Shown here piece by piece: positions 522-10,941 of a DNA stretch of 13,912 bases (position 1 is its first letter; every line of letters begins with the position of its first letter). The stretch is taken from the NCBI GenBank assembly GCA_001004085.1, contig LCQJ01000010.1, positions 1 through 13,912 of the forward strand, given 5' to 3'. The notes under the pieces are model-generated. The model had not been told where the DNA came from. It saw only the letters and a program-made list of their open reading frames with translations, and did not search any database. The position numbers and the translations under genes are program-made. The DNA is from Parcubacteria group bacterium GW2011_GWA2_50_10b. GTDB lineage: Bacteria; Patescibacteriota; Minisyncoccia; Phycocordibacterales; Zambryskibacteraceae.

Positions 522-2021
522 ATGACCCTATCCAAATCCGAGTTTATGATGTTTTTGAAACATCCGGCATGGCTCTGGCTCAAAAAGTACGATAAAACGA
601 AATTGCCGGAGCCAGATGCCAGCCTCCAGGCGCTCTTCGATGAAGGGTCTCTTTTCGAGAGTTACGCGGAAAAGATTTTTCCCGAGGCGATCAAACTTGG
701 CTACAAGAAAGAGGGCAACGTCTTTTCCGGCACGATGTATTACGCGCTACCGGAAGCTACTCTCAAAGAAATAAAAAAAGGCACCAAAGTTATTCTTCAA
801 GGCCGGCTAGAAGCGGATAATATCACTTCCATTTTCGACGTGCTCGAAAGAGTAGATGACCAGACCTTTGACCTCTACGAAATCAAATCCTCCACTTCCG
901 TCAAACCGGAGCATATTCCTGACCTGGCTTTCCAGAGCATTGTCATTGAGAAATCTGGATTTAAAATGCGCAAGGCCTATGTGCTCCATGTCAATAACAA
1001 ATATGAGAGATCTGGCGAAATTAAACCGGAAGAAATCAGTCTCAAGGAAGAGGTGACGGAAGATGTCCGCGCGGCCATACCGGAGACGCTCGAGAATATA
1101 GAGAAGGCTTTTGAAGTGCTTAAGAGCAAATCTATGCCTGATATTTCCCCGCGTCATCTCGCAAACGGAGAAATGTCTGAATGGCTCGACATCTATCAAG
1201 GAATTAAGGGCGACCTTCCCCAATATTCCGCCTACAAGTTGGCGGGCATTAATGCTAAAACTGCAGCCTGGCTGGAAGATAACGGTATAGAAGCGCTCCA
1301 AGATGTGCCGCTTGACGGGCCGTTAAATGAAAGACAATTAAGGCAAGTAATGGCCATGAAATCAGGCGAGCAAGAGATTAACAAAGACGAGATAAAGAAT
1401 TTCTTGAACGAATTGGAATTTCCCATCCACTTCTTCGACTACGAAACGATGATGGGTGTAATACCTTCCTTCGACGGCTACAGGCCCTACCAGCAAGTGC
1501 CATTCCAGTATTCTCTGCATATCCTACCCGAGCCCGACGCCGAATTGATTCACCGGGAATATCTTCATACCGAGAACACGGACCCGATGCCGGTACTCCT
1601 TGAACATATTCAGAAAGATTTTGAAGGCAAAGGCTCGGTCATTTCCTGGAGTATGAAATTTGAAAAGAGCAGGAACAATGAAATGGCTAAACTCTACCCG
1701 AAATATGCCAAGATTCTCGAGAGTATCAATGACAGAATGGTGGACCTGATGGTACCTTTTTCCAAAGGCTGGTTCGTAGATAAAGATTTCTTTGGGAGCG
1801 CTTCCATTAAGCGTATTTTGCCGGTGCTCTTACCTGAATTAAGCTACAAGGAACTCGAGATTAGCGGTGGAGCCGATGCTCAGCGTATCTGGATGGAAAC
1901 GGTACTTAAAGGCATGAATGCCAAAGGGAAGGACAAGATTATGGCCGACCTAATCAAATACTGCACTCTCGATACGTACGCCATGTACGCCATCTATCAA
2001 TATCTGTTGAAAGTTATTTAA
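522..2021 (+). CDS. DUF2779-type protein: PD-(D/E)XK-like nuclease domain plus RNase-H-fold domain
   Basis: The protein has 499 residues. Its N-terminal half resembles a Cas4/RecB-like PD-(D/E)XK nuclease: a candidate acidic residue D106, then E120-I-K122 (LYEIKSST) and a following glutamine helix around Q138. The C-terminal half starts near residue 300 with PIHFFDYETM (D306, E308), followed by further acidic positions around D408 and D484 (IKYCTLDT). This DEDD-like arrangement is typical of DUF2779 proteins. The family is predicted to act on nucleic acids, but its biological role is unknown. The start at 522 is supported by the extended -10 box just upstream. The 3' end overlaps the convergent dsbA-like gene by 8 bp. 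I am confident of the family-level description. Actual nuclease activity is inference. Confidence 0.8.
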   Translation: MTLSKSEFMMFLKHPAWLWLKKYDKTKLPEPDASLQALFDEGSLFESYAEKIFPEAIKLGYKKEGNVFSGTMYYALPEATLKEIKKGTKVILQGRLEADNITSIFDVLERVDDQTFDLYEIKSSTSVKPEHIPDLAFQSIVIEKSGFKMRKAYVLHVNNKYERSGEIKPEEISLKEEVTEDVRAAIPETLENIEKAFEVLKSKSMPDISPRHLANGEMSEWLDIYQGIKGDLPQYSAYKLAGINAKTAAWLEDNGIEALQDVPLDGPLNERQLRQVMAMKSGEQEINKDEIKNFLNELEFPIHFFDYETMMGVIPSFDGYRPYQQVPFQYSLHILPEPDAELIHREYLHTENTDPMPVLLEHIQKDFEGKGSVISWSMKFEKSRNNEMAKLYPKYAKILESINDRMVDLMVPFSKGWFVDKDFFGSASIKRILPVLLPELSYKELEISGGADAQRIWMETVLKGMNAKGKDKIMADLIKYCTLDTYAMYAIYQYLLKVI

Positions 2022-2679
2022 GCAGGGAGTCGATTTTCGCCTTGACTGTGGCCAGAGGCTCGGCCCCGTTGATGATAGTCTGGGTGCCGTCTTTAGTAAG
2101 TATTACGGAATATGGAGTGCCCATCTTAAATTTTATAAAATCTTGCAGGTTTTCTTTAACTAATTCAGAGTGACGTCCACTTGATAAACATTGATTGAAA
2201 GCTTCCAGATCAAGTCCTATAGCCAGAGCTATTTTAGGTAATTCCGCAGAATCAAGAGAGTCATTAGAATTTGTTGTCTCAAAAAGTTTATCTACATAAT
2301 TCCAGAAAGATTGGTTGCCTCCAAGCTCGGCTGCACACTCAGTGGCCTCAGCTTCTTTTGGGGCTAAAGAATGGTAAGGAACATGTCTGTATACCCACGC
2401 AACACGATTTCCATAAGATCTCAAAACTTCTAACATAGTATTATGAAAAACTTTGCACCATGGGCACTCAGTATCTGAATACTCGATAATAACAAGTTCT
2501 GCTGAACGACTTCCTCTGTAGTGGTCTTTTTCAGTGACAGGAGCAATCTTAAATGTTTGGGTAGTGGATTGCCCAGGCACGTAAGTGGCGGAGGTGCCGG
2601 TGCCGAAGTAGATGGCTCCGGCGATGAGGCCGCCGGCAACGACGATGGCGAAGGGGACTAGGAATTTATTTTCTTGCAT
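2014..2679 (-). CDS. Membrane-anchored DsbA-family thiol:disulfide oxidoreductase
   Basis: The protein has 221 residues. Residues 7-27 form a single N-terminal membrane segment, and a thioredoxin-fold domain follows outside the cell. The active site is C72-P-W-C75 (DTECPWCK). A cis-proline loop, GTPYSVI, has P189. The domain layout fits the DsbA/BdbD group, which oxidises or isomerises disulfides in exported proteins. C115 and C164 could form a structural disulfide. No DsbB or VKOR partner is present in the window. The ATG (2677-2679) lies within the left arm of the palindromic element at 2675-2760, which also carries a TATAAT (2714-2719) that may drive this gene. If the element is excised, the same ATG reforms and overlaps the end of the PAP2 gene by 14 nt. 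No Shine-Dalgarno site is visible. Confidence 0.88.
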   Translation of the reverse strand: MQENKFLVPFAIVVAGGLIAGAIYFGTGTSATYVPGQSTTQTFKIAPVTEKDHYRGSRSAELVIIEYSDTECPWCKVFHNTMLEVLRSYGNRVAWVYRHVPYHSLAPKEAEATECAAELGGNQSFWNYVDKLFETTNSNDSLDSAELPKIALAIGLDLEAFNQCLSSGRHSELVKENLQDFIKFKMGTPYSVILTKDGTQTIINGAEPLATVKAKIDSLLK

Positions 2680-2760
2680 CCCGTTAGAAGTTACTTCGAT
2701 TAAATTTCATAATATTATATCCCGCCAAGACATATTTAGTTAGACTTCTAACGGGATGCA
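2675..2760. mobile_element. Palindromic insertion element A (86 bp)
   Basis: The left arm TGCATCCCGTTAGAAGT (2675-2691) and right arm (2744-2760) are perfect 17-bp inverted complements enclosing an AT-rich core. The core contains the palindrome ATAATATTAT (2709-2718). The shared family arm is ATCCCGTTAGAAGT, also seen at 6332. The outer TGC/GCA reads as a flanking duplication (2-bp GC, or 4-bp TGCA if the terminal A/T is counted as target). On the minus strand the element supplies the TAG stop of the PAP2 gene and the ATG of the dsbA-like gene. It is too small to encode a transposase, so it is MITE-like or RPE-like. Confidence 0.75.
2714..2719 (-). promoter_or_regulatory. TATAAT -10 box inside palindromic element A
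   Basis: The minus strand reads TATAAT within the core of the element, 34 nt before the dsbA-like ATG. A -35 at 17 nt is weak. If used, it would make the element a mobile promoter for the downstream gene. Low to moderate confidence. Confidence 0.3.
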
Positions 2761-3200
2761 TATAACTTACTGGTTATTATAGCGCAGAGCATGGCTATAC
2801 CTATACTTGCCAGGACGTCCAAGGAATGGTGCACCCCGACATAGACTCGTGATACGGCGATAAAAATAGCGAATCCACCAAGCCAGGCTGCGTATCGGCG
2901 GTTGAAAAAGAATAATATCGCAGCGAGAGAAGCTGCGAGCAAGACATGGTCGGAAGGGAAGCCATTGTCCGCCGCGTGAGCGACAAGAGGTTCAAAGTTT
3001 TCTACAGCGAATGGCCGCGGGTTCACATACATTTCACGCGCCCCGATGCCTACAATATAGGCAAACGGCAGAGAGATTAGGAGAAAAATCATTAATTTTT
3101 TCCTAGTTTCAATGGGAGAAACAAAAAGGTAGTACCCCGTCAGAAGAATAGAGGCGAAAATCAAGTATTTAGCGCCGAAAATAAATAAAAGGTCTGGCAT
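2748..3200 (-). CDS. PAP2-family phosphatase, BcrC-like undecaprenyl-diphosphatase
   Basis: This 150-residue membrane protein has several hydrophobic helices (about 5-27, 36-53, 86-99, 106-118, 127-143). The PAP2 signature is present: R55-x6-R62-P63 (the usual first lysine is arginine here), PSDH at 82-85, and S117-R118 followed by H124-x3-D128. The PSDH form is typical of BcrC-type enzymes. These dephosphorylate undecaprenyl pyrophosphate to recycle the lipid carrier of peptidoglycan and polysaccharide synthesis. The start ATG overlaps the exonuclease stop (TAATG), implying translational coupling. The last residues (SR) and the TAG stop come from palindromic element A. Without the element the frame would end KLYARK plus TAA, so the catalytic domain is unaffected. 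The phosphatase family is firm; the exact substrate is inferred. Confidence 0.85.
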   Translation of the reverse strand: MPDLLFIFGAKYLIFASILLTGYYLFVSPIETRKKLMIFLLISLPFAYIVGIGAREMYVNPRPFAVENFEPLVAHAADNGFPSDHVLLAASLAAILFFFNRRYAAWLGGFAIFIAVSRVYVGVHHSLDVLASIGIAMLCAIITSKLYASR

Positions 3201-3775
3201 TAGAATGGCAGAGAAAAGGTCATTTTATTATCACCCGGCTTTTCCCAGGCAGAAGTGTCGAGTTTGATTTCTTTCAAAATCCCACCTTCTTTGAAGAGCA
3301 GTTTCTGGTTCTTGACGGCGTAATCGTAAATCTCTTTGGTAATCATGACGTCGTCTATGCAGTATTGCCGGATTTTCTCGATTTCACCCGCTTTCCACCA
3401 CTTGATGGCGTCGAGACCGTGGCCGGATTTGTTTTTGCCCAGAGTACCTTCGGCCAGCTGGTCGAGCTTCATCCGGCGGCCGTAAGCGTCTTTGATTTCC
3501 TTCAAAATATCCAGGCTGCGTATCTTGCCCAGGTCGCCAGGGTAGTATTTGTTCAAAAGGGGGATGTCGAAATGGTCGGAGTTGAAGCCGATAAGCATGT
3601 CGGCTCTTTCCAGAATCGGCCAGAGCTTATGCAGTTCTTCCTCCAGAAAGGAAGAATAAGAATCCGTTTCCGAATCGTAGATGGCGGCCAGGGAAATGTC
3701 GAGTTTGGCGGGGTCGGCGCTGCCGACATCGCTGAAAATATTGCGAGTTTCTAAGTCAAAAACTATTTTACGCAT
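3200..3775 (-). CDS. DEDDy-type 3'-5' exonuclease (DnaQ/RNase-H-like fold)
   Basis: This 191-residue protein has the three exonuclease motifs in order. Exo I is FDLET (D7, E9). Exo II is LIGFNSDHFDIPLL (N65, D70). Exo III is QYCIDDVMITKEIYDY (Y138, D142), the DEDDy variant. These metal-dependent enzymes degrade DNA or RNA from the 3' end. The sequence resembles the predicted PolB-like exonuclease group rather than the DnaQ proofreading subunit. The start chosen is ATG at 3775. It overlaps the hisS stop by 8 nt and begins directly with MRKIVFDLET. The longer open frame upstream (to 3862) runs inside hisS and has no supporting homology. The gene is followed by PAP2 with a 1-nt TAATG overlap. 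Confidence 0.82.
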   Translation of the reverse strand: MRKIVFDLETRNIFSDVGSADPAKLDISLAAIYDSETDSYSSFLEEELHKLWPILERADMLIGFNSDHFDIPLLNKYYPGDLGKIRSLDILKEIKDAYGRRMKLDQLAEGTLGKNKSGHGLDAIKWWKAGEIEKIRQYCIDDVMITKEIYDYAVKNQKLLFKEGGILKEIKLDTSAWEKPGDNKMTFSLPF

Positions 3776-4532
3776 TGGGCAATAAATTGTGGGTTTCGAG
3801 GAAGTCCCGGAGAGTGATATCACCCATGCCGAAACCGACCGTCGGAACGGATTCGACCTCAAACATTTCCAAGAGGTTATCGTAACGTCCGCCTCCGGCT
3901 AACGAGCGAGGATTTTCCGGGTTAGTGTCAAAAATTTCGAAGACCGTGCCGGTATAGTAAGCTTGGCCTCTGGCAAGCGATTCATCGTAAACAATATTGG
4001 GTGCAATTTCTTTAAAATCTTCGGCATTGGCATTATTGATTCTGATTTGGAAATCACTGTCCTGTGCCCCGAATTCTTTCATAACAGCATAAGCAAGGGA
4101 AATCATTTCCTTATCTCCTTCTAACCCCGCCACTCCCATAAGGTCTACGTTGAGTTGGTAATGTTCGCGTCTGCGGCCTTTTTGGGGACGTTCGTAGCGG
4201 AAGAGGTTTGGTATAGAATACCAGCGCAAGGGGAACTTGAGGCTTCGGCGCCTGGCTGCCACCATGCGGGCAAGTGAGGGGGTCATCTCTGGACGGAGTG
4301 TCACGCTCCTACCACCTCGGTCGAGGAAGGTAAAAGTTTGCTCATTGACTATCTCACTTCCGGACTTCTCGGTATATATCTCGGTCAATTCAAGAGGGGA
4401 GGCACTGTACTCGGAGTAACCGAATCGCTCGGCGATTTCGCGCCAGACTTTGAAGATATGGTTTTGGACAACCATGTCTTCTGGATAGAAGTCTTGGACT
4501 CCCTTGTACGGTTCGGTCGATAATTTGGACAT
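3768..4532 (-). CDS. hisS: Histidyl-tRNA synthetase-like protein reduced to the class II catalytic core
   Basis: The 254-residue protein starts MSKLSTEPYKGVQDFYPEDM, the classic HisRS N-terminus. It contains the LRPEMTPSLARMVA segment, motif 2 (FRYERPQKGRRREHYQLNVD, 111-130), a HisA-type motif (ARGQAYYTGTVFE, 187-199, where the family usually has RGLDYYTG), GGGRYDNLL (213-221) and motif 3 (VGFGMGDITLRDFLE). Bacterial HisRS is normally about 420 residues. Two parts are missing here. The segment between the INN strand (166-168) and the RGQAYYTG motif is only about 20 residues instead of roughly 80-100 (insertion domain). The protein also stops right after motif 3, without an anticodon-binding domain. 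No frameshift is visible. It could be a minimal HisRS, a HisZ-like or regulatory paralogue, or a degraded copy. The -10 box lies 6 nt before the ATG. Confidence 0.85.
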   Translation of the reverse strand: MSKLSTEPYKGVQDFYPEDMVVQNHIFKVWREIAERFGYSEYSASPLELTEIYTEKSGSEIVNEQTFTFLDRGGRSVTLRPEMTPSLARMVAARRRSLKFPLRWYSIPNLFRYERPQKGRRREHYQLNVDLMGVAGLEGDKEMISLAYAVMKEFGAQDSDFQIRINNANAEDFKEIAPNIVYDESLARGQAYYTGTVFEIFDTNPENPRSLAGGGRYDNLLEMFEVESVPTVGFGMGDITLRDFLETHNLLPNA

Positions 4533-4538
4533 GCGGGT

Positions 4539-4544
4539 ATTATA
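4539..4544 (-). promoter_or_regulatory. TATAAT -10 box of hisS, 6 nt before ATG
   Basis: The minus strand reads TATAAT, six bases, then ATG. A 4/6 -35 (TTCAAA, 4562-4567) sits exactly 17 nt upstream. Transcription would begin at or next to the start codon. The TAA stop codon of typA (4540-4542) lies inside this box. Confidence 0.65.
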
Positions 4545-6333
4545 CCGCTTTTCGCTGGGCTTTTGAACGGTCTTGCTGGGTGAGATAGACTTTGCGCAGG
4601 CGGACCGATTGCGGCGTGATTTCAATGTATTCGTCTTCATTCATAATCTCCATAGCGCGCTCGATAGAGAGTTTCCAAGCAGGGACGAGGAAAATACCTT
4701 CGTCCGAGCCGGAGGCGCGCATGTTGGTGAGCTGCTTGCCCTTGGTCGGATTGACGTACATGTCCTCGCCTTTGGAAGAGTTGCCGATCACTTGGCCGGC
4801 GTAGACTTCATCACCCGGCTCCGCATACAAGACGCCCCTTTGCTGAAGGTTGTCGAGAGAGAAGGCGAGGCACTTGCCGGCTTCCATGGAAATCATCGAG
4901 CCGACGTCGTGATGCTCGATTACCCCGACGTAAGGCTTGAACTCGGTGAATCGGGAAGAGAGGATGCCCAAGCCCTTGGTGGCGACCACGAACTCGCCGC
5001 GATAACCCAAGAGTCCGCGAGTCGGCGCCTCGAAGGTGAGCCGGGTTTGATTATTTTCCGTTTTCATATCCATAAGCTGTGCTTTGCGTTGAGTCAAAGC
5101 CGAGATAATACTGCCGCTCATTTCCTCCGGCACATCGACCAGTACTTCTTCAAACGGTTCGGTCTTCTCGCCATTCTCTTCTTTCAAAATTACTTTCGGT
5201 TGGGAAACTTGGAGCTCGAATCCTTCCCGGCGCATGTTCTCGCAGAGTATTGCGATGTGGAGTTCGCCTCTGCCGTAGACGGTGTAGTAGTCACTGGTGC
5301 CGAAGTCGACTTTAAGGCCGACGTTTACCTCAAGCTCACGTTCCAATCGCTCACGAATCTGTCTGCCGGTGACGAATTTGCCCTCGCGTCCGGCGAATGG
5401 CGAGTTGTTAACCAGGAAGTTTAAGGAGATGGTCGGTTCGTCAATGTTAATGGCAGGCAAGGGTTCAAAATTTTCTTGGCCGGAAACGGTGTCTCCAATA
5501 TAAATTTCCGAAAGTCCGGCAATCATACAAATATCTCCCGCCAAGGCTTCCGCACTTTCAACACGCTTAATGCCTTCGAAGGTAAAGAGTTTGGTAATCT
5601 TGCCTTTATAGCTTTCGCCTGTCGGCTTTTTTACCCAAATATCTTGGCCCGTTTTTATTTTCCCCTCGTAAATTCTCGCGATAGCGAGGCGGCCGAGGAA
5701 ATTGTCGTAGGCGAGGTTAAAGGGCTGGGCTCTTAACTCGTCAACCTGCCACGTTGACGAGTTGGCTGGGGGGACTTTTTCTAGAATGACATCGAGAAGA
5801 GGAGTAAGATTTTTTCTTTCGTCATTCAAATTTCGCATCGCTACCCCCTCTCGGCCCACGGCATAGACAGTGGGGAAGTCGATTTGTTCGTTATTGGCAC
5901 CCAATTCGAGGAAAAGCTCGAGCACCATTTCGTGCACTACCTCCGGGCGGGCAGCCGGTTTGTCGATTTTATTGATAATGACGATTGGCTTGAGGCCGAG
6001 TTCCAGTGATTTCTTAAGCACAAAGCGTGTCTGAGGCATGGGCCCCTCTTGGGCGTCAACAACGAGAAGCACGGTATCAATAGAGCGGAGCACGCGCTCC
6101 ACTTCGCTGCCGAAGTCGGAGTGGCCTGGCGTGTCGACGATGTTAATCTTGCTACCTTTATAAAAGATTGAAGTGTTCTTGGAATAAATGGTGATACCGC
6201 GCTCGAGTTCCAGAGCGTTCGAATCCATACTTACTCCTTCCTCGACCATGCCGGTCTGGCGCATCAAAGCGTCGGTAAGTGTGGTCTTGCCGTGGTCAAC
6301 GTGAGCAATAATCGCAATGTTTCGTATTTCCAT
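4540..6333 (-). CDS. typA: Translational GTPase TypA/BipA
   Basis: The predicted protein has 597 residues, close to the usual 600-615. The GTPase domain shows G1 [10 protein letters not shown] (10-19), G2 RGITI (45-49), G3 DTPGH (67-71) and G4 NKID (121-124). These are followed by EF-G-like domains II, III and V and the TypA-specific C-terminal region ([21 protein letters not shown]). TypA binds ribosomes and assists 50S assembly and adaptation to stress such as cold. The conserved N-terminus is [17 protein letters not shown], so ATG 6333 is preferred. That ATG is formed at the edge of palindromic element B. The frame remains open through the element to a second ATG at 6405, which would add 24 non-conserved residues and is probably the pre-insertion start site. 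The downstream hisS promoter is embedded in the stop codon. Confidence 0.96.
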
Positions 6334-6401
6334 CCCGTTAGAAGTCCGACTTGCTTTGGGCAAGTCGGCAGAAATCTCTGATTTCTTACTTCTAATGGGA
6401 T
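6332..6401. mobile_element. Palindromic insertion element B (70 bp) with two internal hairpins
   Basis: The left arm ATCCCGTTAGAAGT (6332-6345) pairs with ACTTCTAATGGGAT (6388-6401) with one G-T wobble. Between the arms two perfect hairpins are packed end to end. One is CCGACTTGC/GCAAGTCGG (6346-6354 with 6360-6368). The other is AGAAATC/GATTTCT (6370-6376 with 6380-6386). The fold is therefore a three-way junction. The flanks read ATGG on one side and GGAA on the other on the minus strand (2-bp GG, or TGGA, duplication). With the duplication, 72 bp or exactly 24 codons are added, without stops, between two ATGs at the start of typA. Confidence 0.75.
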
Positions 6402-6438
6402 CCATAATGAAACCGCCCATTCAGGCGGGTAGGCTGCA

Positions 6439-6467
6439 ATTAAAGCATAAAAACCACCAGCAGGCAA
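6439..6467 (-). promoter_or_regulatory. Promoter of typA (TTGCCT - 17 nt - TTTAAT)
   Basis: On the minus strand, TTGCCT (6467-6462) and TTTAAT (6444-6439) are separated by exactly 17 nt. They lie directly after the stop codon of the upstream gene. A small GC hairpin (CCGCC/GGCGG, about 6413-6428) lies between this promoter and the possible ATG at 6405, in the leader. Confidence 0.45.
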
Positions 6468-6947
6468 TTACTTTTCCGAGAGAGAGCCGTTCCGGTATAT
6501 GAGCTCTTTGGAGACTGATATGGTAGGTTCAGCGGCGAAGGCCTCGTCCGGAGCGCGGTCAAGATAGGAAACCTTTATGACGCCAGCAGCATTAATGGAG
6601 ACGGTTTGTGGAGCGATACGGTCGCCGAGAAAGACCGCGTTCGTGCCTTTGTAATTAACCGGGCCGGAGACGTAAGCTGCCGCGTAGATAAAGACGCCGG
6701 AACCGCCGCCACTCTCCGCGAGCAATACGGCCGTGTCCGGCTTCTGGTCTCCATTAATATCCCCGTAGGCTTTTTCCTCGAGTATGGTGACTTCTCCCTC
6801 AAGACCGGAGAAAGTGGCGAGAGTGGGGTCGGGACGGAAGGTGGCATCGGGATTATCGGGGACGGTGGTCTTAACCTCGCTTTTACTATCTTTGAAAAGA
6901 TAAAAGAGCGCCGCGATTATCACTACAACAATCAGTATTTTCTTCAT
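6468..6947 (-). CDS. Exported or membrane-anchored protein with a calcium-loop-like DxNxDxxxD motif
   Basis: The protein has 159 residues. MKKILIVVVIIAALFYLF (1-18) is a signal anchor or uncleaved signal peptide. The mature part contains GDINGDQKPDTAV (62-74), which resembles EF-hand or dockerin-like calcium loops. A glycine-rich GGGSGVF segment and GTNAVFLGDRIAPQ (101-114) follow. From memory, related small extracytoplasmic proteins with D-NGD...D-AVLL and LGDR motifs occur in several bacteria, but I know of no function for them. The start at 6947 is chosen because the membrane segment begins there and TATAAT lies 6 nt upstream. The open frame extends five codons further, through the promoter. 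A strong terminator upstream isolates this gene. Confidence 0.75.
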   Translation of the reverse strand: MKKILIVVVIIAALFYLFKDSKSEVKTTVPDNPDATFRPDPTLATFSGLEGEVTILEEKAYGDINGDQKPDTAVLLAESGGGSGVFIYAAAYVSGPVNYKGTNAVFLGDRIAPQTVSINAAGVIKVSYLDRAPDEAFAAEPTISVSKELIYRNGSLSEK

Positions 6948-6953
6948 GCTTAC

Positions 6954-6959
6954 ATTATA
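6954..6959 (-). promoter_or_regulatory. TATAAT -10 box, 6 nt before the ATG of the exported-protein gene
   Basis: A perfect TATAAT on the minus strand is separated from ATG 6947 by six bases, predicting a leaderless transcript. No recognisable -35 is present, because that position is occupied by the terminator hairpin at 6968-6993. Confidence 0.6.
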
Positions 6960-6967
6960 CACAAAGC

Positions 6968-6993
6968 AAAAACCCCGCCGAGGCGGGGTTTTT
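6968..6993. terminator. Strong intrinsic terminator, bidirectional
   Basis: AAAAACCCCGCC / GGCGGGGTTTTT form a 7-bp all-GC stem with a tiny loop, flanked by five A and five T residues. It works in either direction. On the minus strand it ends the candidate structured RNA and any tRNA read-through. It sits directly upstream of the next minus-strand promoter. Confidence 0.9.
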
Positions 6994-7123
6994 GATTAGC
7001 GAGGCCGGCATTCATGAAAAGAGAATTCCGCTTAAATTGCATTTTGGTCCGGTGTGAGGCTCATAACTCTCACTGGTTTTGGACCTATAATTTTAGTTAA
7101 GGAATCTCTTCCTAAGCCGACCT
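6968..7123 (-). ncRNA. Candidate structured non-coding RNA, rod-shaped (6S-like architecture)
   Basis: No gene fits this stretch, but both strands fold into one long imperfect rod. The pairs are 7116-7123 with 7002-7009 (8 bp, one G-U on the minus strand), 7105-7110 with 7019-7024, 7101-7104 with 7026-7029, 7097-7100 with 7032-7035, 7081-7085 with 7046-7050, and GTGAG/CTCAC at 7054-7058 with 7069-7073. A roughly 10x11-nt open bubble (7036-7045 / 7086-7096) sits in the middle. The minus strand is favoured. TTGACA (7157-7152) lies upstream, an A/T-rich -10 region (7134-7125) follows, and transcription ends at the strong terminator. A terminal stem, central bubble and apical hairpin recall 6S RNA, but length and sequence do not prove it. 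It may be another RNA. Confidence 0.5.
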
Positions 7124-7151
7124 GATAATATTTTCGTACGCCCAGAAAAAA

Positions 7152-7157
7152 TGTCAA
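7152..7157 (-). promoter_or_regulatory. TTGACA -35 element upstream of the candidate ncRNA
   Basis: A perfect TTGACA on the minus strand. At 17-18 nt spacing the -10 would be AAAATA or AAATAT, giving a start at about 7122, which matches the 5' end of the predicted terminal stem. TATTAT occurs too, but at 21 nt. Confidence 0.4.
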
Positions 7158-7207
7158 ACCCGTTTTTCGGACAATTCGGGGGATAGCCTGTTGATGAAAT
7201 GTGCATA

Positions 7208-7231
7208 AGAATCCGCCGGTGGCGGGCTTTT
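7208..7231. terminator. GC hairpin downstream of tRNA-Asn
   Basis: CCGCC (7213-7217), GGT loop and GGCGG (7221-7225) are flanked by AAGAAT and CTTTTCTT. On the minus strand the hairpin follows the tRNA 3' end by about 20 nt and is followed by ATTCTT, a plausible modest terminator. It could also act on the plus strand. Confidence 0.5.
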
Positions 7232-7247
7232 CTTATAAAATTCTCAG

Positions 7248-7320
7248 CTCCGCGACCAGGGCTCGAACCTGGGACATCCTCCTTAACAGGGAGGCGCTCT
7301 ACCGACTGAGCTATCGCGGA
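7248..7320 (-). tRNA. tRNA-Asn (anticodon GTT)
   Basis: The minus strand folds as a complete 73-nt cloverleaf. The acceptor TCCGCGA pairs with TCGCGGA. The D arm is GCTC/GAGC with loop AGTCGGTA. The anticodon stem CCTCC/GGAGG carries loop CTGTTAA, so the anticodon is GTT. The variable loop is ATGTC, and the T arm CCAGG/CCTGG has loop TTCGAGC. The discriminator base is G. The 3' CCA is not encoded and must be added. A TAGAAT -10 box lies 7 nt upstream, at the 3' end of the HNH gene. Confidence 0.97.
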
Positions 7321-7327
7321 GCTAAAA

Positions 7328-7333
7328 ATTCTA
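7328..7333 (-). promoter_or_regulatory. TAGAAT -10 box of tRNA-Asn
   Basis: TAGAAT on the minus strand is 7 nt from the mature tRNA 5' end, so transcription may begin at or next to the mature end. This mirrors the short spacing seen at protein genes here. No clear -35 is seen. Confidence 0.45.
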
Positions 7334-7334
7334 T

Positions 7335-7580
7335 CTATTTATTTTTCAAAGAACTCTTTGGGACCTTGGCTACGCCACCGTGTATTTCTCGGTGGCAGTT
7401 TGCGCGCACAAAAATACATTTATCCGCTTCTGCCCACAACTTCTTCCACGAACGCGTAAGGCCGCGGGAGGAAAGTCCGAATTCTTTCGTCGTCCCATCA
7501 ACATGATAAAGGTCAAACGCGCCAGCGTACCTATTATAGCCACAGAGTAAACATTTGCCACCCTTATACTCAATTACCAT
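7335..7580 (-). CDS. Small HNH-endonuclease-like protein, partly degenerate
   Basis: This 81-residue protein resembles the small stand-alone HNH proteins common in bacterial and phage genomes: C10-x2-C13 (GGKCLLCGYN), a central His (LYHVDG, H26), RSWKKL, and the terminal N61-C-H-R-E-I-H67. Intact relatives usually have FHHRD and LCANCHREIH. Here the first of the paired histidines is tyrosine (Y25) and the third zinc cysteine is arginine (R59). Metal binding or catalysis may therefore be impaired. The frame is open upstream for ten more codons (to a TGA) with basic, family-like residues but no start codon, so an N-terminal truncation is possible. The ATG at 7580 is the only candidate. tRNA-Asn follows on the same strand. 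Confidence 0.65.
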   Translation of the reverse strand: MVIEYKGGKCLLCGYNRYAGAFDLYHVDGTTKEFGLSSRGLTRSWKKLWAEADKCIFVRANCHREIHGGVAKVPKSSLKNK

Positions 7581-7617
7581 TTTCTTATAGCGAGTATGGT
7601 TCTTTCGAAATCAAGGC

Positions 7618-8007
7618 TCACCCGAAAATACGTTTCTGAATTTTGTATGAAAAGTAGCCAAGAAGGCCGAGTTGTATGGCCGGCGTAAGTCCAACGGAGA
7701 GCACCGGGATGACAAGCATGTACTCGTTGTACAACCACCTCCCGGTGCCGAGCGCCCACCACTCGATGCCTATGGCGAGAATCACGCCGAACAAAACGAT
7801 GAGCCAAGAGCGCTTCTGAAGCGCGGGAAACAAGATGAACGGCAGGGTGATGGCGGCGATCATGGCGGCGTCGGCGAGCGCCGCCCGCAGGAGAATAAAC
7901 TCTGTTATGGCGCCACCCATGTAGTTGTCGTAAAGGAAGACATGCAAGTTCTCCCAAATCGCGTTGAGTATAAAGGCTCCTATAAAGACGGTGAGAATTC
8001 TTTTCAT
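7618..8007 (-). CDS. Small four-helix integral membrane protein, unknown function
   Basis: The protein has 129 residues with four predicted membrane helices (about 5-22, 42-62, 67-84, 98-120). The polar residues cluster in NAIWENLHVFLY (15-26), EWWALGTGRWLYNEY (82-96) and PVLSVGLTPAIQ (101-112). These probably mark a conserved functional face. I do not recognise a characterised family. The start chosen is ATG 8007, because it begins with MKRILTVFIGAF and has a TATAAT 6 nt upstream. The open frame reaches 8265, but that extension runs antisense through the neighbouring pterin-dehydratase gene. It is divergent from that gene, and the -10 boxes are only 12 bp apart. Confidence 0.75.
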   Translation of the reverse strand: MKRILTVFIGAFILNAIWENLHVFLYDNYMGGAITEFILLRAALADAAMIAAITLPFILFPALQKRSWLIVLFGVILAIGIEWWALGTGRWLYNEYMLVIPVLSVGLTPAIQLGLLGYFSYKIQKRIFG

Positions 8008-8013
8008 GACATA

Positions 8014-8037
8014 ATTATACTTTTTCTTCGTTATAAT
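8014..8037. promoter_or_regulatory. Back-to-back divergent TATAAT boxes
   Basis: TATAAT on the minus strand (8019-8014) is 6 nt from ATG 8007. TATAAT on the plus strand (8032-8037) is 7 nt from ATG 8045. Both predict leaderless mRNAs. With only 12 bp between the boxes, each promoter occupies the -35 region of the other, so simultaneous polymerase binding is unlikely. Confidence 0.65.
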
Positions 8038-8044
8038 ACTGAAT

Positions 8045-8383
8045 ATGGACACACCCAAAATATTGAGCAAGGAGGAAATAGCGGAAGGGCTCAAAACCCT
8101 GCCCGGCTGGAAGTTCGAGCACGACCCCACTTCGCCAGAGGCTACGAGCGGGCAAGGCAAAATCTCGAAGCAGTATGAGTTCAAGGACTTCATGCATTCT
8201 CTGACTTTCATCAATACTATGGCCCCGGTCTTCGAGGCGAATGACCACCATCCTGACACGTGCATCTACTACAGCAAGGTGCTTTTCGAACTGCAACGCT
8301 TCGATATCGGCGGCAAAGTGACCGACCGCGACCTTTTCATGGCGGGGGAGATTGAAAAGCATTACAATAGCCTTAATGGTTAG
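8045..8383 (+). CDS. Pterin-4a-carbinolamine dehydratase (PCD/DCoH) family protein
   Basis: This 112-residue protein, of typical length for the family, has LPGWKFE near the N-terminus and the signature EANDHHPD (64-71), followed by YYSKVLFEL and GGKVTDRDLFMAGEIE. The family recycles 4a-hydroxytetrahydrobiopterin or acts as a moonlighting dimerisation factor. The paired active-site histidines (H68, H69) are present. The third histidine, usually in a TH-x-x-GG context, appears to be phenylalanine here (RFDIGG, F86). No biopterin-dependent hydroxylase is in the window, so the substrate is doubtful. TATAAT ends 7 nt before the ATG and there is no Shine-Dalgarno site. The last 8 nt overlap the start of the VanY-like gene. 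Confidence 0.85.
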   Translation: MDTPKILSKEEIAEGLKTLPGWKFEHDPTSPEATSGQGKISKQYEFKDFMHSLTFINTMAPVFEANDHHPDTCIYYSKVLFELQRFDIGGKVTDRDLFMAGEIEKHYNSLNG

Positions 8384-9224
8384 GAAGTTCTACGAAAGAT
8401 TCGACGGCTGGCCGGTGGCGGCGATAGGGGTGGCAGTGTTTGTCGGAGTGGCTTACGGCGCTTACTATACTTACGCGAATCTTCTCCGGGAGAAGGCCGG
8501 GCTTCTCTCGAAACTGGAGACCGAGAGGGAGGTGAATTACGGCCTCCTGCTCCGGGTACGGGAAAAAGAAGGAATCATCAATTCTTTCCAGGGGCAGATA
8601 AACGAAATCTTCGGCACCGTCGGCACTTTGGAAAAACTGGCCGCCACCGATGAGGAGCTTCTCAAGAAGTATTCCAGAGTCTATTTTTTGAATGAAAATT
8701 ATACTCCTTCAAAACTCGAAGATATAGAAGAAAAATACCTGGTAGAAACCGCGAGCAACTACCAGCTCCACGCCGATGTCTATCCGCAGCTCGTGCGCTT
8801 ACTCGACGCTTCGGCGAAAGAAGGGCTTGATATCAAAGTGGCTTCGGCCTACCGCTCTTTCGGAACTCAGTCTGCGCTTAAATCGGCTTATAGCTTTACT
8901 TACGGCTCCGGAGCTAACACCTTCAGCGCCGACCAGGGCTACTCCGAGCACCAGCTTGGGACGACGGTCGACTTCTCCGCCGGAGAGACCGGTATATCCG
9001 GCACGATTGTATCGACGAAGGAATATAAATGGCTCAAGGATAATGCTCACAACTACGGCTTCATCCTCTCTTATCCGGAAAATAATGCTTATTACAAGTT
9101 CGAACCGTGGCACTGGAGATATGTCGGCCGGGCACTGGCCAGTCGGCTTCATGATGAAGGTAAGCACTTCTATGACCTCGACCAGCGGATTATCGACACT
9201 TATTTAATCAAGCTTTTTGATTGA
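8376..9224 (+). CDS. Membrane-anchored VanY-type D-alanyl-D-alanine carboxypeptidase
   Basis: The protein has 282 residues. Residues 13-35 form one membrane anchor. Residues 36-100 are charged and heptad-like (probable coiled coil). The rest is a VanY/M15B peptidase domain. The zinc and catalytic residues are visible: S190-E-H192-Q-L-G-T-T-V-D199, then E243-P-W-H246-W-R-Y. The family trims the terminal D-Ala of peptidoglycan stem peptides. The start chosen is ATG 8376, which overlaps the previous gene's stop (ATGGTTAG, 8 nt), implying coupled translation. A TTG start at 8352 is possible but only adds residues overlapping the upstream gene. Nothing suggests vancomycin resistance, since VanH, VanA and VanX are absent. 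Cell-wall remodelling is the sensible role. Confidence 0.9.
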   Translation: MVRKFYERFDGWPVAAIGVAVFVGVAYGAYYTYANLLREKAGLLSKLETEREVNYGLLLRVREKEGIINSFQGQINEIFGTVGTLEKLAATDEELLKKYSRVYFLNENYTPSKLEDIEEKYLVETASNYQLHADVYPQLVRLLDASAKEGLDIKVASAYRSFGTQSALKSAYSFTYGSGANTFSADQGYSEHQLGTTVDFSAGETGISGTIVSTKEYKWLKDNAHNYGFILSYPENNAYYKFEPWHWRYVGRALASRLHDEGKHFYDLDQRIIDTYLIKLFD

Positions 9225-9227
9225 ATT

Positions 9228-9236
9228 TGATATGAT
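9228..9236 (+). promoter_or_regulatory. Extended -10 box (TGA-TATGAT) of hpf, 6 nt before ATG
   Basis: TATGAT at 9231-9236 with an upstream TGn is followed by six bases and then ATG 9243. It overlaps the spacer after the VanY-like stop codon. A leaderless transcript separate from the upstream gene is predicted. Confidence 0.5.
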
Positions 9237-9242
9237 TAAGCC

Positions 9243-9587
9243 ATGAAAATCAATATCAAAGCGACCGGGATCGAATTGACGCCGGCCATCGCCGGTTACG
9301 TGCAAAAAAAGATTTCCGCCATCGAAAAGTATCTGCCTGCAGGCGCGGTTGACCTGGTCGCCCAGGTGGAAGTGGGCAAAAGCACCCAACACCACAAGTC
9401 CGGCGAAGTCTTCAAGGCCGAAGTGCATCTGGTGGGCGCCGGTCTTGACCTCTACGCGGTTTCCGAACAATCGGATCTTTATGCCGCTATCGACCTGGTC
9501 AAGGATGAAAAAGACCCTGAATCCCGTACGAAACTTATGTTGTATACTTACTATATTAAAAATTTAAATTTATTTCGTACGGGATGA
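9243..9587 (+). CDS. hpf: Ribosome hibernation-promoting factor (short HPF/RaiA type) with C-terminus replaced by an insertion element
   Basis: The 114-residue protein opens with MKINIKATGIELTPAIAGYV, a typical HPF/YfiA start. It continues with IEKYLP, VEVGKSTQHHKSGEVFKAEVHL and the conserved SDLYAAIDLVKDE (77-89). HPF binds the 30S decoding region in resting cells and promotes inactive ribosomes. After residue 93 the similarity stops. Residues 94-114 are encoded by palindromic element C, and the stop TGA is created at its right junction. Downstream, AACGGATATCTCAAGCGC in another frame would read NGYLKR, reminiscent of an original basic C-terminal helix. The RNA-binding fold (about 95 residues) appears complete. 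The altered tail may be tolerated. Confidence 0.88.
   Translation: MKINIKATGIELTPAIAGYVQKKISAIEKYLPAGAVDLVAQVEVGKSTQHHKSGEVFKAEVHLVGAGLDLYAVSEQSDLYAAIDLVKDEKDPESRTKLMLYTYYIKNLNLFRTG
9521..9585. mobile_element. Palindromic insertion element C (65 bp) inside the 3' end of hpf
   Basis: The left arm ATCCCGTACGAAA (9521-9533) and right arm TTTCGTACGGGAT (9573-9585) are perfect 13-bp inverted complements. The core is AT-rich and includes AAATTTAAATTT. The outer ATCCCGT/ACGGGAT matches elements A and B, while the inner arm differs. The flanks GA...GA (or TGAA...TGAA) form the same kind of short duplication. It is read through in frame as the new C-terminus of Hpf. Confidence 0.72.
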
Positions 9588-9657
9588 ACGGATATCTCAA
9601 GCGCAAGGCCACCCCATGGGTTTCGATTTCCATCCTGGCGGTTGGAGCCAGATACCG
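9588..9657 (+). pseudogene. Probable detached 3' remnant of hpf
   Basis: Between element C and the convergent def-fmt stop lie 70 bp with no gene of their own. In one frame they read NGYLKRKATPWVS... to a TAA at 9658-9660. The NGYLKRK part could be the former basic C-terminal helix of Hpf, although a single extra base near 9516-9519 would also be needed to join frames. This is tentative. The rest is not recognisably coding. Confidence 0.3.
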
Positions 9658-10941
9658 TTAAGCGTTGCCCAAAAGGAATTCCTTCCAGGTCATTTCCCGT
9701 TTGCCGGCTGGAATGACGCGCACGGGCGTAAACTTTCCCTCTCTAACCTCGGCTTCTTTGACGACCAGGCGGATTTCCTTACCGGTCTTACTTTTGAAAA
9801 ACATGTAAGCCCCCGGCCAGGTGCTGTAGGCAAGCACTTTGCGCCAATTTTCTACGGCCGGAGCCGCCGGGTCAATCAAGCCGTCTTCTTTCTTAATCAT
9901 TTTGGTGAAAGTGGCCAGGGCGTGGCCCTGGGCCTTGGCTTTGATTTCGCCCCGTATCCAGGCCGGGATAATTTGAGCGAGGAGCCGCCCTCCGGCATGA
10001 CCCAATTTTTCTTCCACTGTCGCGTAGTGGTCGGGCCACGGCTCGATAGGCACTACTTCCTGGGCGATGACGGGTCCGTGGTCCATTTTTTCATCCATCT
10101 TGATGATGGTCACTCCCGGGTTGCTGTTGGTAAGGATAGTGCTTTGGATGGGGGAGGCACCACGCAGCGCAGGTAAGAGAGACGGGTGGACATTGAGCGT
10201 GCCGAACCGCGGCATCTCCACCACTGCTTTCGGCAGAATCTTGCCGAAAGAGGCGACCACGAACAAATCGGCGTCGAGTTCTTGGAGCGCCGCCACCGGC
10301 AAGGGGTCTCTGGCCGATTCGATTTTCAAAACCGGGGAAATGTTCATTTTTTCCAGTTCCTCGAGCACGTATGACGAGAAGCGGGAGCTGCCGAAAAAGA
10401 CCATCGAAAGCGGCGGCACATCCTGAATGTCCTCGGCCTTGTCGGTAAAGAGTATCCCGTTCAAGTGGTCGATTTCATGCTGGAAAATATGGGCCAGGAG
10501 GCCGGAGGCGCCATAAACGGCCTTAAGGCCCTTCTCGTCCAGCGCTTGTATGGTGACTTTTTCGTACCGCAGTACTTTGCCGTAGAGATAGCGCAGCGAC
10601 AGGCAGCCTTCTTCAAGCCTCTTCTTTTTCTGAGAAGTCTTCACGATTTCCGGATTGATGAAGACGAGGTCGTCGAGCTTTTCCGGCGTATCGCTTTTCT
10701 TGGCGCGTCTGGCGAGGGCGAGCGCCCTGCCGCTGACCACGAAGAGCCTGAGGCTCTCGCCTATTTGCGGCGCGGCGATAGCCACGCCGTCTTCTTCGGC
10801 ATGGAGAGCCTTTTTCATCCTGGCGATGACAGCGAGCGTTTGGGCGGAGCCGATTTCTTCGGCCGTGAGCGCTTTGGCGACCGCTCTCAAGACCGGCGCT
10901 TTGCGGTCCACCAGCAGCTTTTTCTCTTTGGTATCAGGCAT
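9658..10941 (-). CDS. def-fmt: Fusion protein: peptide deformylase (N-terminal) and methionyl-tRNA formyltransferase (C-terminal)
   Basis: This 427-residue protein joins two usually separate enzymes. The deformylase part (about 1-175) has motif 1 GVAIAAPQIG (52-61), motif 2 EGCLS (111-115, metal ligand C113) and motif 3 QHEIDH (154-159; H155, E156, H159). The formyltransferase part starts near SMVFFGSSRF (179-188), then has ASFGKILPKAV, the active-site block TLNVHPSLLPALRG (N250, H252) and KMDHGP (D287). A C-terminal OB-like domain follows with WPGAYMFF and FTPVRVIPAGKREMTWKEFL. Between the first strand and the FGKILP segment the sequence is some 35 residues shorter than in E. coli Fmt and lacks the tRNA-contacting loop (PDRPAGRG-type). 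Fmt formylates initiator Met-tRNA, while Def removes formyl groups from nascent chains. The start overlaps the priA stop (TAATG). Confidence 0.93.
   Translation of the reverse strand: MPDTKEKKLLVDRKAPVLRAVAKALTAEEIGSAQTLAVIARMKKALHAEEDGVAIAAPQIGESLRLFVVSGRALALARRAKKSDTPEKLDDLVFINPEIVKTSQKKKRLEEGCLSLRYLYGKVLRYEKVTIQALDEKGLKAVYGASGLLAHIFQHEIDHLNGILFTDKAEDIQDVPPLSMVFFGSSRFSSYVLEELEKMNISPVLKIESARDPLPVAALQELDADLFVVASFGKILPKAVVEMPRFGTLNVHPSLLPALRGASPIQSTILTNSNPGVTIIKMDEKMDHGPVIAQEVVPIEPWPDHYATVEEKLGHAGGRLLAQIIPAWIRGEIKAKAQGHALATFTKMIKKEDGLIDPAAPAVENWRKVLAYSTWPGAYMFFKSKTGKEIRLVVKEAEVREGKFTPVRVIPAGKREMTWKEFLLGNA

Follow-up and report, generated by a model that had tools for sequence, protein, structure and literature searches.

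The stretch of DNA considered here, called the window, comprises 13,912 nucleotides of contig LCQJ01000010.1 of Parcubacteria group bacterium GW2011_GWA2_50_10b, and the subject is three short palindromic elements that are found in it at the starts and ends of genes. When their bounds are taken as ATCCCG...CGGGAT, these elements occupy positions 2678 to 2757, 6332 to 6401 and 9521 to 9585 and measure 80, 70 and 65 bp, respectively. All three had been noticed in a preliminary description of this stretch, where they were given as 86, 70 and 65 bp, the 86 bp of the first including flanking bases. With at most one mismatch, the arm sequence ATCCCGTNNGAA is matched seven times in the window, whereas 200 shuffles give 1.31 matches on average and never more than 5. 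The elements are also predicted to fold strongly as RNA (z-scores of -5.85, -7.56 and -3.96 for elements 1, 2 and 3, with element 2 at -35.9 kcal/mol).

Element 1 (2678 to 2757, minus strand; class B of the two arm classes defined below, with ATCCCGTTAGAAGT arms) lies in the start codon of a DsbA/thioredoxin-like gene (2014 to 2679, minus strand; PF13462 and PF01323) and at the 3' end of a PAP2 gene, and the ATG of the dsbA-like gene is regenerated by the end of the element. Counting the flanks, it forms a perfect inverted repeat of 17 bp. It is bordered by two copies of GC, at 2676 to 2677 on the dsbA side and at 2758 to 2759 on the PAP2 side. The old start codon opens a leader frame of 25 amino acids, MHPVRSLTKYVLAGYNIMKFNRSNF (2684 to 2761, minus strand), whose TAA stop is four nucleotides before the dsbA ATG. 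Elsewhere in the genome, two copies related to element 1 (C9:5502 and C19:9553) agree with each other at 80 of 80 bases, and their hosts are unrelated genes. Element 2 (6332 to 6401, minus strand; class B with inner hairpins) lies in the start codon of typA between two copies of GG, as read on the gene strand (6330 to 6331 on the typA side and 6402 to 6403 on the upstream side). When read from the old start codon, typA covers 4540 to 6405 (minus strand; BipA_C and GTP_EFTU domains), with MDPIRSKKSEISADLPKASRTSNG in frame with MEIRN..., and the element adds an extension of 24 residues, first methionine counted. Element 3 (9521 to 9585, plus strand; class A, with ATCCCGTACGAAA arms) lies inside the 3' part of hpf (9243 to 9587, plus strand), whose frame ends in a TGA at the right-hand edge of the element. 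Its arms are perfect over 13 bp, and the identical 13 bp terminate a 277-bp element with a GIY-YIG nuclease gene that is described below. The bordering copies of GA, at 9519 to 9520 and 9586 to 9587, follow from the comparison of 2-bp duplications, and the left one is preceded by CT, not AT.

The window's own genome (G000) is a 77.65% complete assembly of 384,075 bases in 31 contigs. A search of all of it with ATCCCGTNNGAA gives 39 exact matches versus none for the reversed control, and 79 versus 11 when one mismatch is allowed. Elements were sought in about 94 kb fetched around these matches, a procedure by which copies with both arms degenerate beyond the search tolerance would be missed, and the resulting 33 arm pairs were reduced to 31 elements by removing C6:4249 as a chance pair and C20:7 as a contig-overlap duplicate of C12:15942. 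The dispersed family that had been proposed from the window is therefore present. Its arms fall into two classes, class A being ATCCCGTACGAA and class B ATCCC(G/A)TTAGAA. The left flank is ATGN in 25 of the 31 copies; GN follows the element, and the element end plus this GN rebuilds a start codon, which is ATG in 24 of these copies and GTG in one. Two further copies (C5:12820 and C12:15942) have no ATG on the left, yet end in the ATG of the IF-1 gene and of a peptidase M50 gene. The placement at gene edges claimed earlier is indeed non-random, and the edge in question is specifically the start codon; the stop codons, which had been regarded as systematically supplied as well, arise from the upstream frame running into the arm.

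The target duplication is 2 bp long, mostly GN, and matches in 28 of the 31 copies of this genome (GC, GG and GA in the window). Four of these 28 copies can distinguish 2 bp from 4 bp, and there only 2 bp match; a 4-bp ATGN duplication was rejected in favour of 2 bp because the outer bases differ from the element end in these four copies. The same four copies correct the 4-bp duplication of the form TGNA (TGCA, TGGA, TGAA) that had been given initially beside GN; the existence of a short duplication as such is upheld, with the GN form fitting the 2-bp result.

The host genes are diverse. Of the 26 host open reading frames (ORFs) that have at least 36 codons, 20 were compared with Pfam, and 19 of these matched a family: PrsW, Hsp20, transglycosylase, S4, RuvX, PGK, L9, pyrophosphatase, IF-1, S5, NDK, DsbA-like, TypA, L3, peptidase M50, L36, RNase III, superoxide dismutase and an FAD-binding protein. 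Three of the 25 ATGN-flanked copies are followed by short ORFs of obscure meaning (5, 40 and 44 codons). Of the 394 ATG triplets on the two strands of the window, 344 lie within coding sequence, 33 between genes and 6 in elements, and 11 are start codons, as classified with a gene list that we drew from the ORF table and in which starts are perhaps undercounted. As only 11 of the 44 non-coding ATGs are starts, start codons are over-represented as insertion sites even among the ATGs at which insertion could be tolerated. The short copies that resemble each other have the same orientation relative to the host gene in 26 of 27 pairs (276 pairs compared). The existence of a dispersed mobile element family that inserts into start codons is well supported by these observations.

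The elements had been described as having no coding capacity, and this does not hold, as the frame of the old start codon continues into the element, both in the window (the 25-residue dsbA leader and the 24-residue TypA fusion) and in general. Among the 25 copies with an old ATG, the frame stops at the TGA of the new ATGA in eight, at a TAA four nucleotides before the new ATG in seven and 11 nucleotides before it in one; it is fused in frame with the host in three and stops earlier in six, which include the long element. When 'open' is defined as being fused or stopping at or within 12 nucleotides of the new start, 19 of the 24 short copies are open to the new start codon versus 6.6 expected, and none of 2000 shuffles, in which the interior was shuffled and the arms were kept, is as high. 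After removal of five near-identical copies, 14 of 19 are open versus 5.8 expected (0 of 2000 shuffles). Relatives have the same trend in a weaker form (10 of 22 versus 3.6 expected; 1 of 2000 shuffles). Whichever frame enters the class B right arm before ATGA (ACTTCTAACGGGATGA, read directly), it meets a stop or is fused. This layout of the leaders suggests translational coupling between the old and the new start codon.

Sites without an element, which the preliminary description had proposed looking for in relatives, are found at typA and ruvX. The typA gene is without an element in 16 of 16 other genomes of the genus searched and starts directly at ATGGA(A/G)AT, with two of these loci (L257 and L262) having the same TTTCATT before the start as the window. 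The ruvX gene, host of the 277-bp copy, has no element at its start in 13 of 13 relatives with a match. In one genome (G010, locus L272), a palindrome of about 30 bp with class B arms (ATCCCATTAGAA..TTCTAACGGGAC) is seen shortly upstream of the ruvX start, not inside it. These comparisons bear on the explanation that the palindromes are non-mobile leader hairpins, attenuator-like or riboswitch-like, which control their host genes in cis. The strong RNA folds of all three window elements and their location at gene starts agree with such a role; the absence from the same genes in 16 of 16 and 13 of 13 relatives, the near-identical copies at unrelated genes and the target duplications speak against it, and we consider it very improbable. 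Rfam at the gathering threshold finds a tRNA as its sole match in the window and none at the elements, and a cis-regulatory RNA family was rejected on this basis.

The insertion in hpf has had a cost. In 13 of the 14 matching relatives, which were read (the other, L296, is a partial match), hpf runs past a KDE/KDD/RDE region into a basic C-terminal tail, and this tail is absent from the window gene. The S30AE domain of the window gene is still recognised; element 3, of which it had been said earlier that no core domain is disrupted, does damage the gene through the loss of the tail. A rearrangement at element 3 is possible as the event behind this loss. In this region (window 9243 to 9660), the DNA past element 3 apparently holds no code for the tail.

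The family extends into relatives, where 80 stretches contain 40 arm pairs; ATG precedes N on the left in 24 of them, and in 34 a right-hand start codon opens an ORF that either spans 60 codons or more or runs off the end of the locus. Genome G029, whose gene names are our reading of the translations, has head-to-tail elements with GA between them at the starts of gltX and hpf, and a nuclease-bearing copy before murG whose target was the ATGA that an older element had left behind. The inner copies of these arrays (L233, L237 and L241) end on the right in TTTCGGAGGGATGA, not TTCTAACGGGATGA, and a Shine-Dalgarno-like GGAGG adjoins the ATG.

A transposase acting in trans had been implied by the preliminary description, and there is now a concrete candidate for it, a GIY-YIG nuclease whose gene lies between class A arms. 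A copy of 277 bp in the window's own genome (C19:7885-8161) has an ATGA flank and ends that are common with the class A copies over 13 to 14 bp. It contains a single ORF of 86 amino acids, MFYTYVLKSKKNGRLYTGYTNDLRKRF...RLKRFLFRTG, which ends in the TGA of the ATGA on the right, and its product is a GIY-YIG protein (PF01541, 61.3 bits). In an alignment of 39 such proteins, Tyr3, Tyr5, Tyr16, Arg26, His30 and Glu62 are invariant and are candidate catalytic residues. The structure model of the nuclease has a mean pLDDT (predicted local distance difference test) of 88. The nearest solved relatives by sequence are UPF0213 proteins (1zg2, E-value 1.7e-11; 1ywl, 1.1e-6) and SLX1 (7wme, 1.2e-4). When folds are compared, only 1zg2 is matched at an E-value of at most 0.001, the matches to Slx1 (7cq2, 0.03) and I-TevI (1ln0, 0.18) being weaker. 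To our knowledge, UPF0213 and Slx1 proteins are not mobile-element proteins. Between this gene and that of G007, dN is 0.074 and dS 0.677, values from which the nuclease gene is judged to be under purifying selection; pairs of L094 or L096 with genes of another length had been compared ungapped and are not used, and L091 and L175, which have identical nuclease genes on contigs of equal length (14,971 bp), are counted once.

The same arrangement is seen elsewhere. Arm-flanked copies of 277 to 282 bp are present in G007, G012, G029 and G032 and also in named records. When terminal repeats were scored with a fixed geometry around homologous genes (4 of 80 loci being skipped for ORF length), 18 of 76 loci reach a score of at least 12, whereas none of the 370 shifted controls scores more than 10; for the loci in other genomes, 3 of 24 are unscored as the motif was not found (L303, L323 and L313), and L327 has no usable ORF. 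The sequences of the repeats vary between lineages. A C-terminal TG, which corresponds to the translated terminal arm, is found in 103 of the 120 homologues listed, these being the best 120 of 2359 matches. The gene reads in the direction of the left ATG in all nine ATG-flanked nuclease copies counted (that of contig C19 in the window's own genome and those of G007, L092, L094, L097, L100, L101, G012 and G029). As the GIY-YIG gene is met repeatedly between terminal repeats, there is strong support for its being a part of such elements. In other genomes, the GIY-YIG genes at L304, L306, L308, L309, L315 and L080 are flanked by long terminal repeats that are imperfect in part and have a different sequence (ATAATTTACCCTGTTAAATA and ACCCTCTAAAGTTTTATCTAT, for instance), which suggests that there are further element families.

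It could be argued that the nuclease is a passenger, a homing-type endonuclease gene that invaded a miniature inverted-repeat transposable element (MITE) whose true transposase lies outside the assembled part of the genome. There is only a single full-length copy in this incomplete assembly, and the short copies have no internal similarity to it, both of which agree with such a history. Against it, nuclease genes between differing terminal repeats recur at 276 to 318 bp, in a search whose geometry admitted little beyond one small gene, in Nomurabacteria, Kaiserbacteria, Harrisonbacteria and other Patescibacteria, to which most of the repeat-flanked records belong, as well as in records labelled Stahlbacteria, Cloacimonadota, Nitrospinota and deltaproteobacterium (labels of metagenome-assembled genomes, which may be wrong). 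A passenger is not expected to recur in one form in this way, and we regard this explanation as unlikely.

The mechanism that we infer from these arrangements has as its driver a unit of about 280 bp, which would consist of terminal inverted repeats and one gene for a GIY-YIG nuclease of about 86 amino acids. The nuclease would cut at or near ATGN with a stagger of two nucleotides, giving the 2-bp duplication, and insertion would take place in one orientation relative to the ATG. The terminal AT of the element and the duplicated GN would remake the start codon and leave the site reusable; insertion into the rebuilt start codon predicts tandem arrays such as those of G029. The old start codon, with its upstream signals intact, would be read into the element in a frame that either fuses with the host gene or stops at the new start codon, where ribosomes could restart, and the host gene would remain on. 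In a full-length element the nuclease would be expressed from the promoter of the host gene, and short copies that have the arms alone in common with it would be mobilised in trans. Slx1 acts on branched DNA, and for this reason an extruded palindrome is a plausible substrate of the nuclease. The likeliest interpretations are that the nuclease drives the movement of the elements, the short copies included, and that the leader frames keep the hosts on by coupling. On balance, we consider it probable that the family is a GIY-YIG-driven mobile element of about 280 bp with short, non-autonomous relatives, of which the window holds three.

Several observations weigh against this interpretation. The two other GIY-YIG genes of the window's own genome have no such arms, which leaves one arm-matched full-length copy. 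The eight short class A copies have no convincing similarity to the 277-bp element inside the arms (in 4 to 146 of 200 shuffles, the local alignment scores at least as high), and none of the loci examined has a nuclease element whose arms are exactly those commonest in class B (TTAGAAGT), the nearest arms being TTAGAGAT, TTAGAGAC and TTAGAAAT. The count of ATGN flanks has a small upward bias, as the script by which the copies were oriented favours such flanks; in relatives, 12 of 22 short leaders stop early, and the 2-bp duplication is found in just 26 of 40 copies, some of which resemble duplications of 1 or 3 bp. In favour of the interpretation, a nuclease of at least 110 bits is found in four of the five genomes with at least seven arm matches versus four of 26 others (p 0.0098), but this cut-off was picked after the table had been seen. 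An ATCCCGT-type nuclease element is present in three of the five arm-rich genomes (G000, G007 and G029); G008 has no close nuclease, and the nuclease of at least 110 bits in G027 has an internal stop and no terminal repeat. Over the 31 genomes, arm counts correlate more strongly with counts of Y1 transposase genes (rho 0.61, p 0.0003) than with those of all GIY-YIG genes (rho 0.34, p 0.06); within the genus neither correlation is significant (p 0.13 and 0.10, respectively). Finally, we know of no GIY-YIG enzyme that joins DNA, and host repair would therefore have to complete the insertion.

That the short copies are simple internal deletions of the 277-bp element was considered, and is unsupported for the eight class A copies by the comparison of alignments with shuffles. 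A copy of 187 bp in G029 (L231 756-942) ends in the frame RQRFLFLTG, which is like the C-terminus of the nuclease, and may have arisen by deletion from an element with the nuclease gene.

The correlation with Y1 genes is one of the points that would be accounted for if the palindromes were moved in trans by a Y1 (IS200-type) transposase, in the manner of repetitive extragenic palindromic (REP) sequences and REP-associated tyrosine transposases (RAYTs), with the GIY-YIG gene being unrelated. A REP-type transposase with ends matching the arms had been named earlier as worth searching for, and Y1 genes are indeed present in this genome, with three Y1_Tnp matches above the cut-off. A Y1 gene is also found in five of five arm-rich genomes versus 16 of 26 others (p 0.15), and short hairpin-rich elements are reminiscent of REP sequences, as are the palindromic ends and the ordered orientation to the target, which are also properties of the IS200/IS605 family. 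Set against this, the three Y1 loci of this genome (L297 to L299) are without paired arms within the surrounding 2.2 to 3.2 kb; L297 has three arm-like sites (at most two mismatches) on one strand only, and L298 and L299 have none. Genomes poor in arms have as many or more Y1 genes (eight in G012, seven in G016 and six in G001). The insertion of IS200 and REP elements is not known to make a target duplication, as opposed to the duplication in 28 of 31 copies here, and it is the GIY-YIG gene that lies exactly between arms in several genomes. A Y1-driven origin is, in our view, improbable.

When compared with known systems, the family resembles MITEs in being short, with terminal inverted repeats, a short target duplication, dispersed near-identical copies and a presumed mobilisation in trans. 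Terminal inverted repeats, target duplications (28 of 31 copies here and 26 of 40 in relatives) and empty sites in relatives are all found, and the 277-bp class A element is a candidate for the autonomous partner, with the reservation that the interiors of short class A copies are dissimilar to it and no exact class B counterpart was found. It is unlike MITEs in the recurrent duplication of a start codon, in leader frames that reach the new start and in a full-length relative with only a GIY-YIG nuclease; in its available portion, a review of MITEs (PMC10969869) contains neither the term 'start codon' nor 'endonuclease'. Rickettsia palindromic elements are likewise small palindromes that are tolerated in genes and add in-frame peptides to host proteins. 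According to the same portion of the review, each of them is about 150 bp long and contains an ORF that encodes a conserved peptide; in R. conorii, close to half are inserted in genomic ORFs as fusions (PMC10969869). The elements described here differ from them in that the insertion site is the start codon, with three of 25 leader frames fused and 16 ending at or near the new start.

With GIY-YIG homing endonucleases of the I-TevI type, and with the GIY-YIG insertions in rRNA genes of the candidate phyla radiation (CPR), the catalytic fold is in common, and a spread based on cutting is plausible for all of them. The CPR rRNA insertions with GIY-YIG genes match no intron and are seemingly outside a homing context, according to the available part of their report (PMC11270868). 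The present family is unlike homing systems in that its targets are unrelated genes with little more than ATGN in common, in its terminal inverted repeats and target duplications, and in having no intron or intein; homing into one allelic site by flank homology does not fit the many unrelated host genes, which share mainly ATGN. By sequence and by fold, the nearest solved relatives of the nuclease are UPF0213 and Slx1 proteins.

Two other features of the window were noted. Further inverted repeats, with unrelated arms, are present at 388 to 425 and 450 to 472, between a sigma-factor-like ORF and the next gene. On the minus strand at 9658 to 10941, a single ORF of 427 amino acids encodes a fusion of peptide deformylase with methionyl-tRNA formyltransferase (PF01327 and PF00551/PF02911).

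Among the papers listed in searches of the open-access literature, no earlier description was found of bacterial GIY-YIG elements that have terminal repeats, or of MITEs in start codons (titles and the starts of abstracts, with subscription papers and bioRxiv outside the scope). The nearest printed hint, as far as the available part of that report goes, is the set of GIY-YIG insertions in rRNA genes of the CPR that match no intron (PMC11270868). We give a little better than an even chance to the broader proposal that these elements are a new class of transposable element, of about 280 bp, in which one GIY-YIG nuclease of about 86 amino acids acts as the transposase or as its cutting half. Such elements would target start codons, rebuild their own target into tandems and, by their leader frames, keep essential hosts translated; they would occur in Patescibacteria, perhaps in several other phyla too, and may explain the non-intron GIY-YIG insertions of CPR rRNA genes.

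The prokaryotic DNA transposases known to us use DDE, HUH/Y1, serine or tyrosine chemistry. If the proposal is true, a transposable element that has no gene other than one for a GIY-YIG nuclease would add a new kind to these, and hardly any autonomous mobile element smaller than the unit of about 280 bp could be conceived. In annotation, transposons could be the source of N-terminal extensions like the MDPIRS..TSNG of TypA, of short leader ORFs and of many CPR entries that are named 'GIY-YIG nuclease family' or 'excinuclease ABC subunit C'. Insertion into start codons, when combined with coupling, would explain how such elements are tolerated in the ribosomal-protein and translation-factor genes of a tiny genome.

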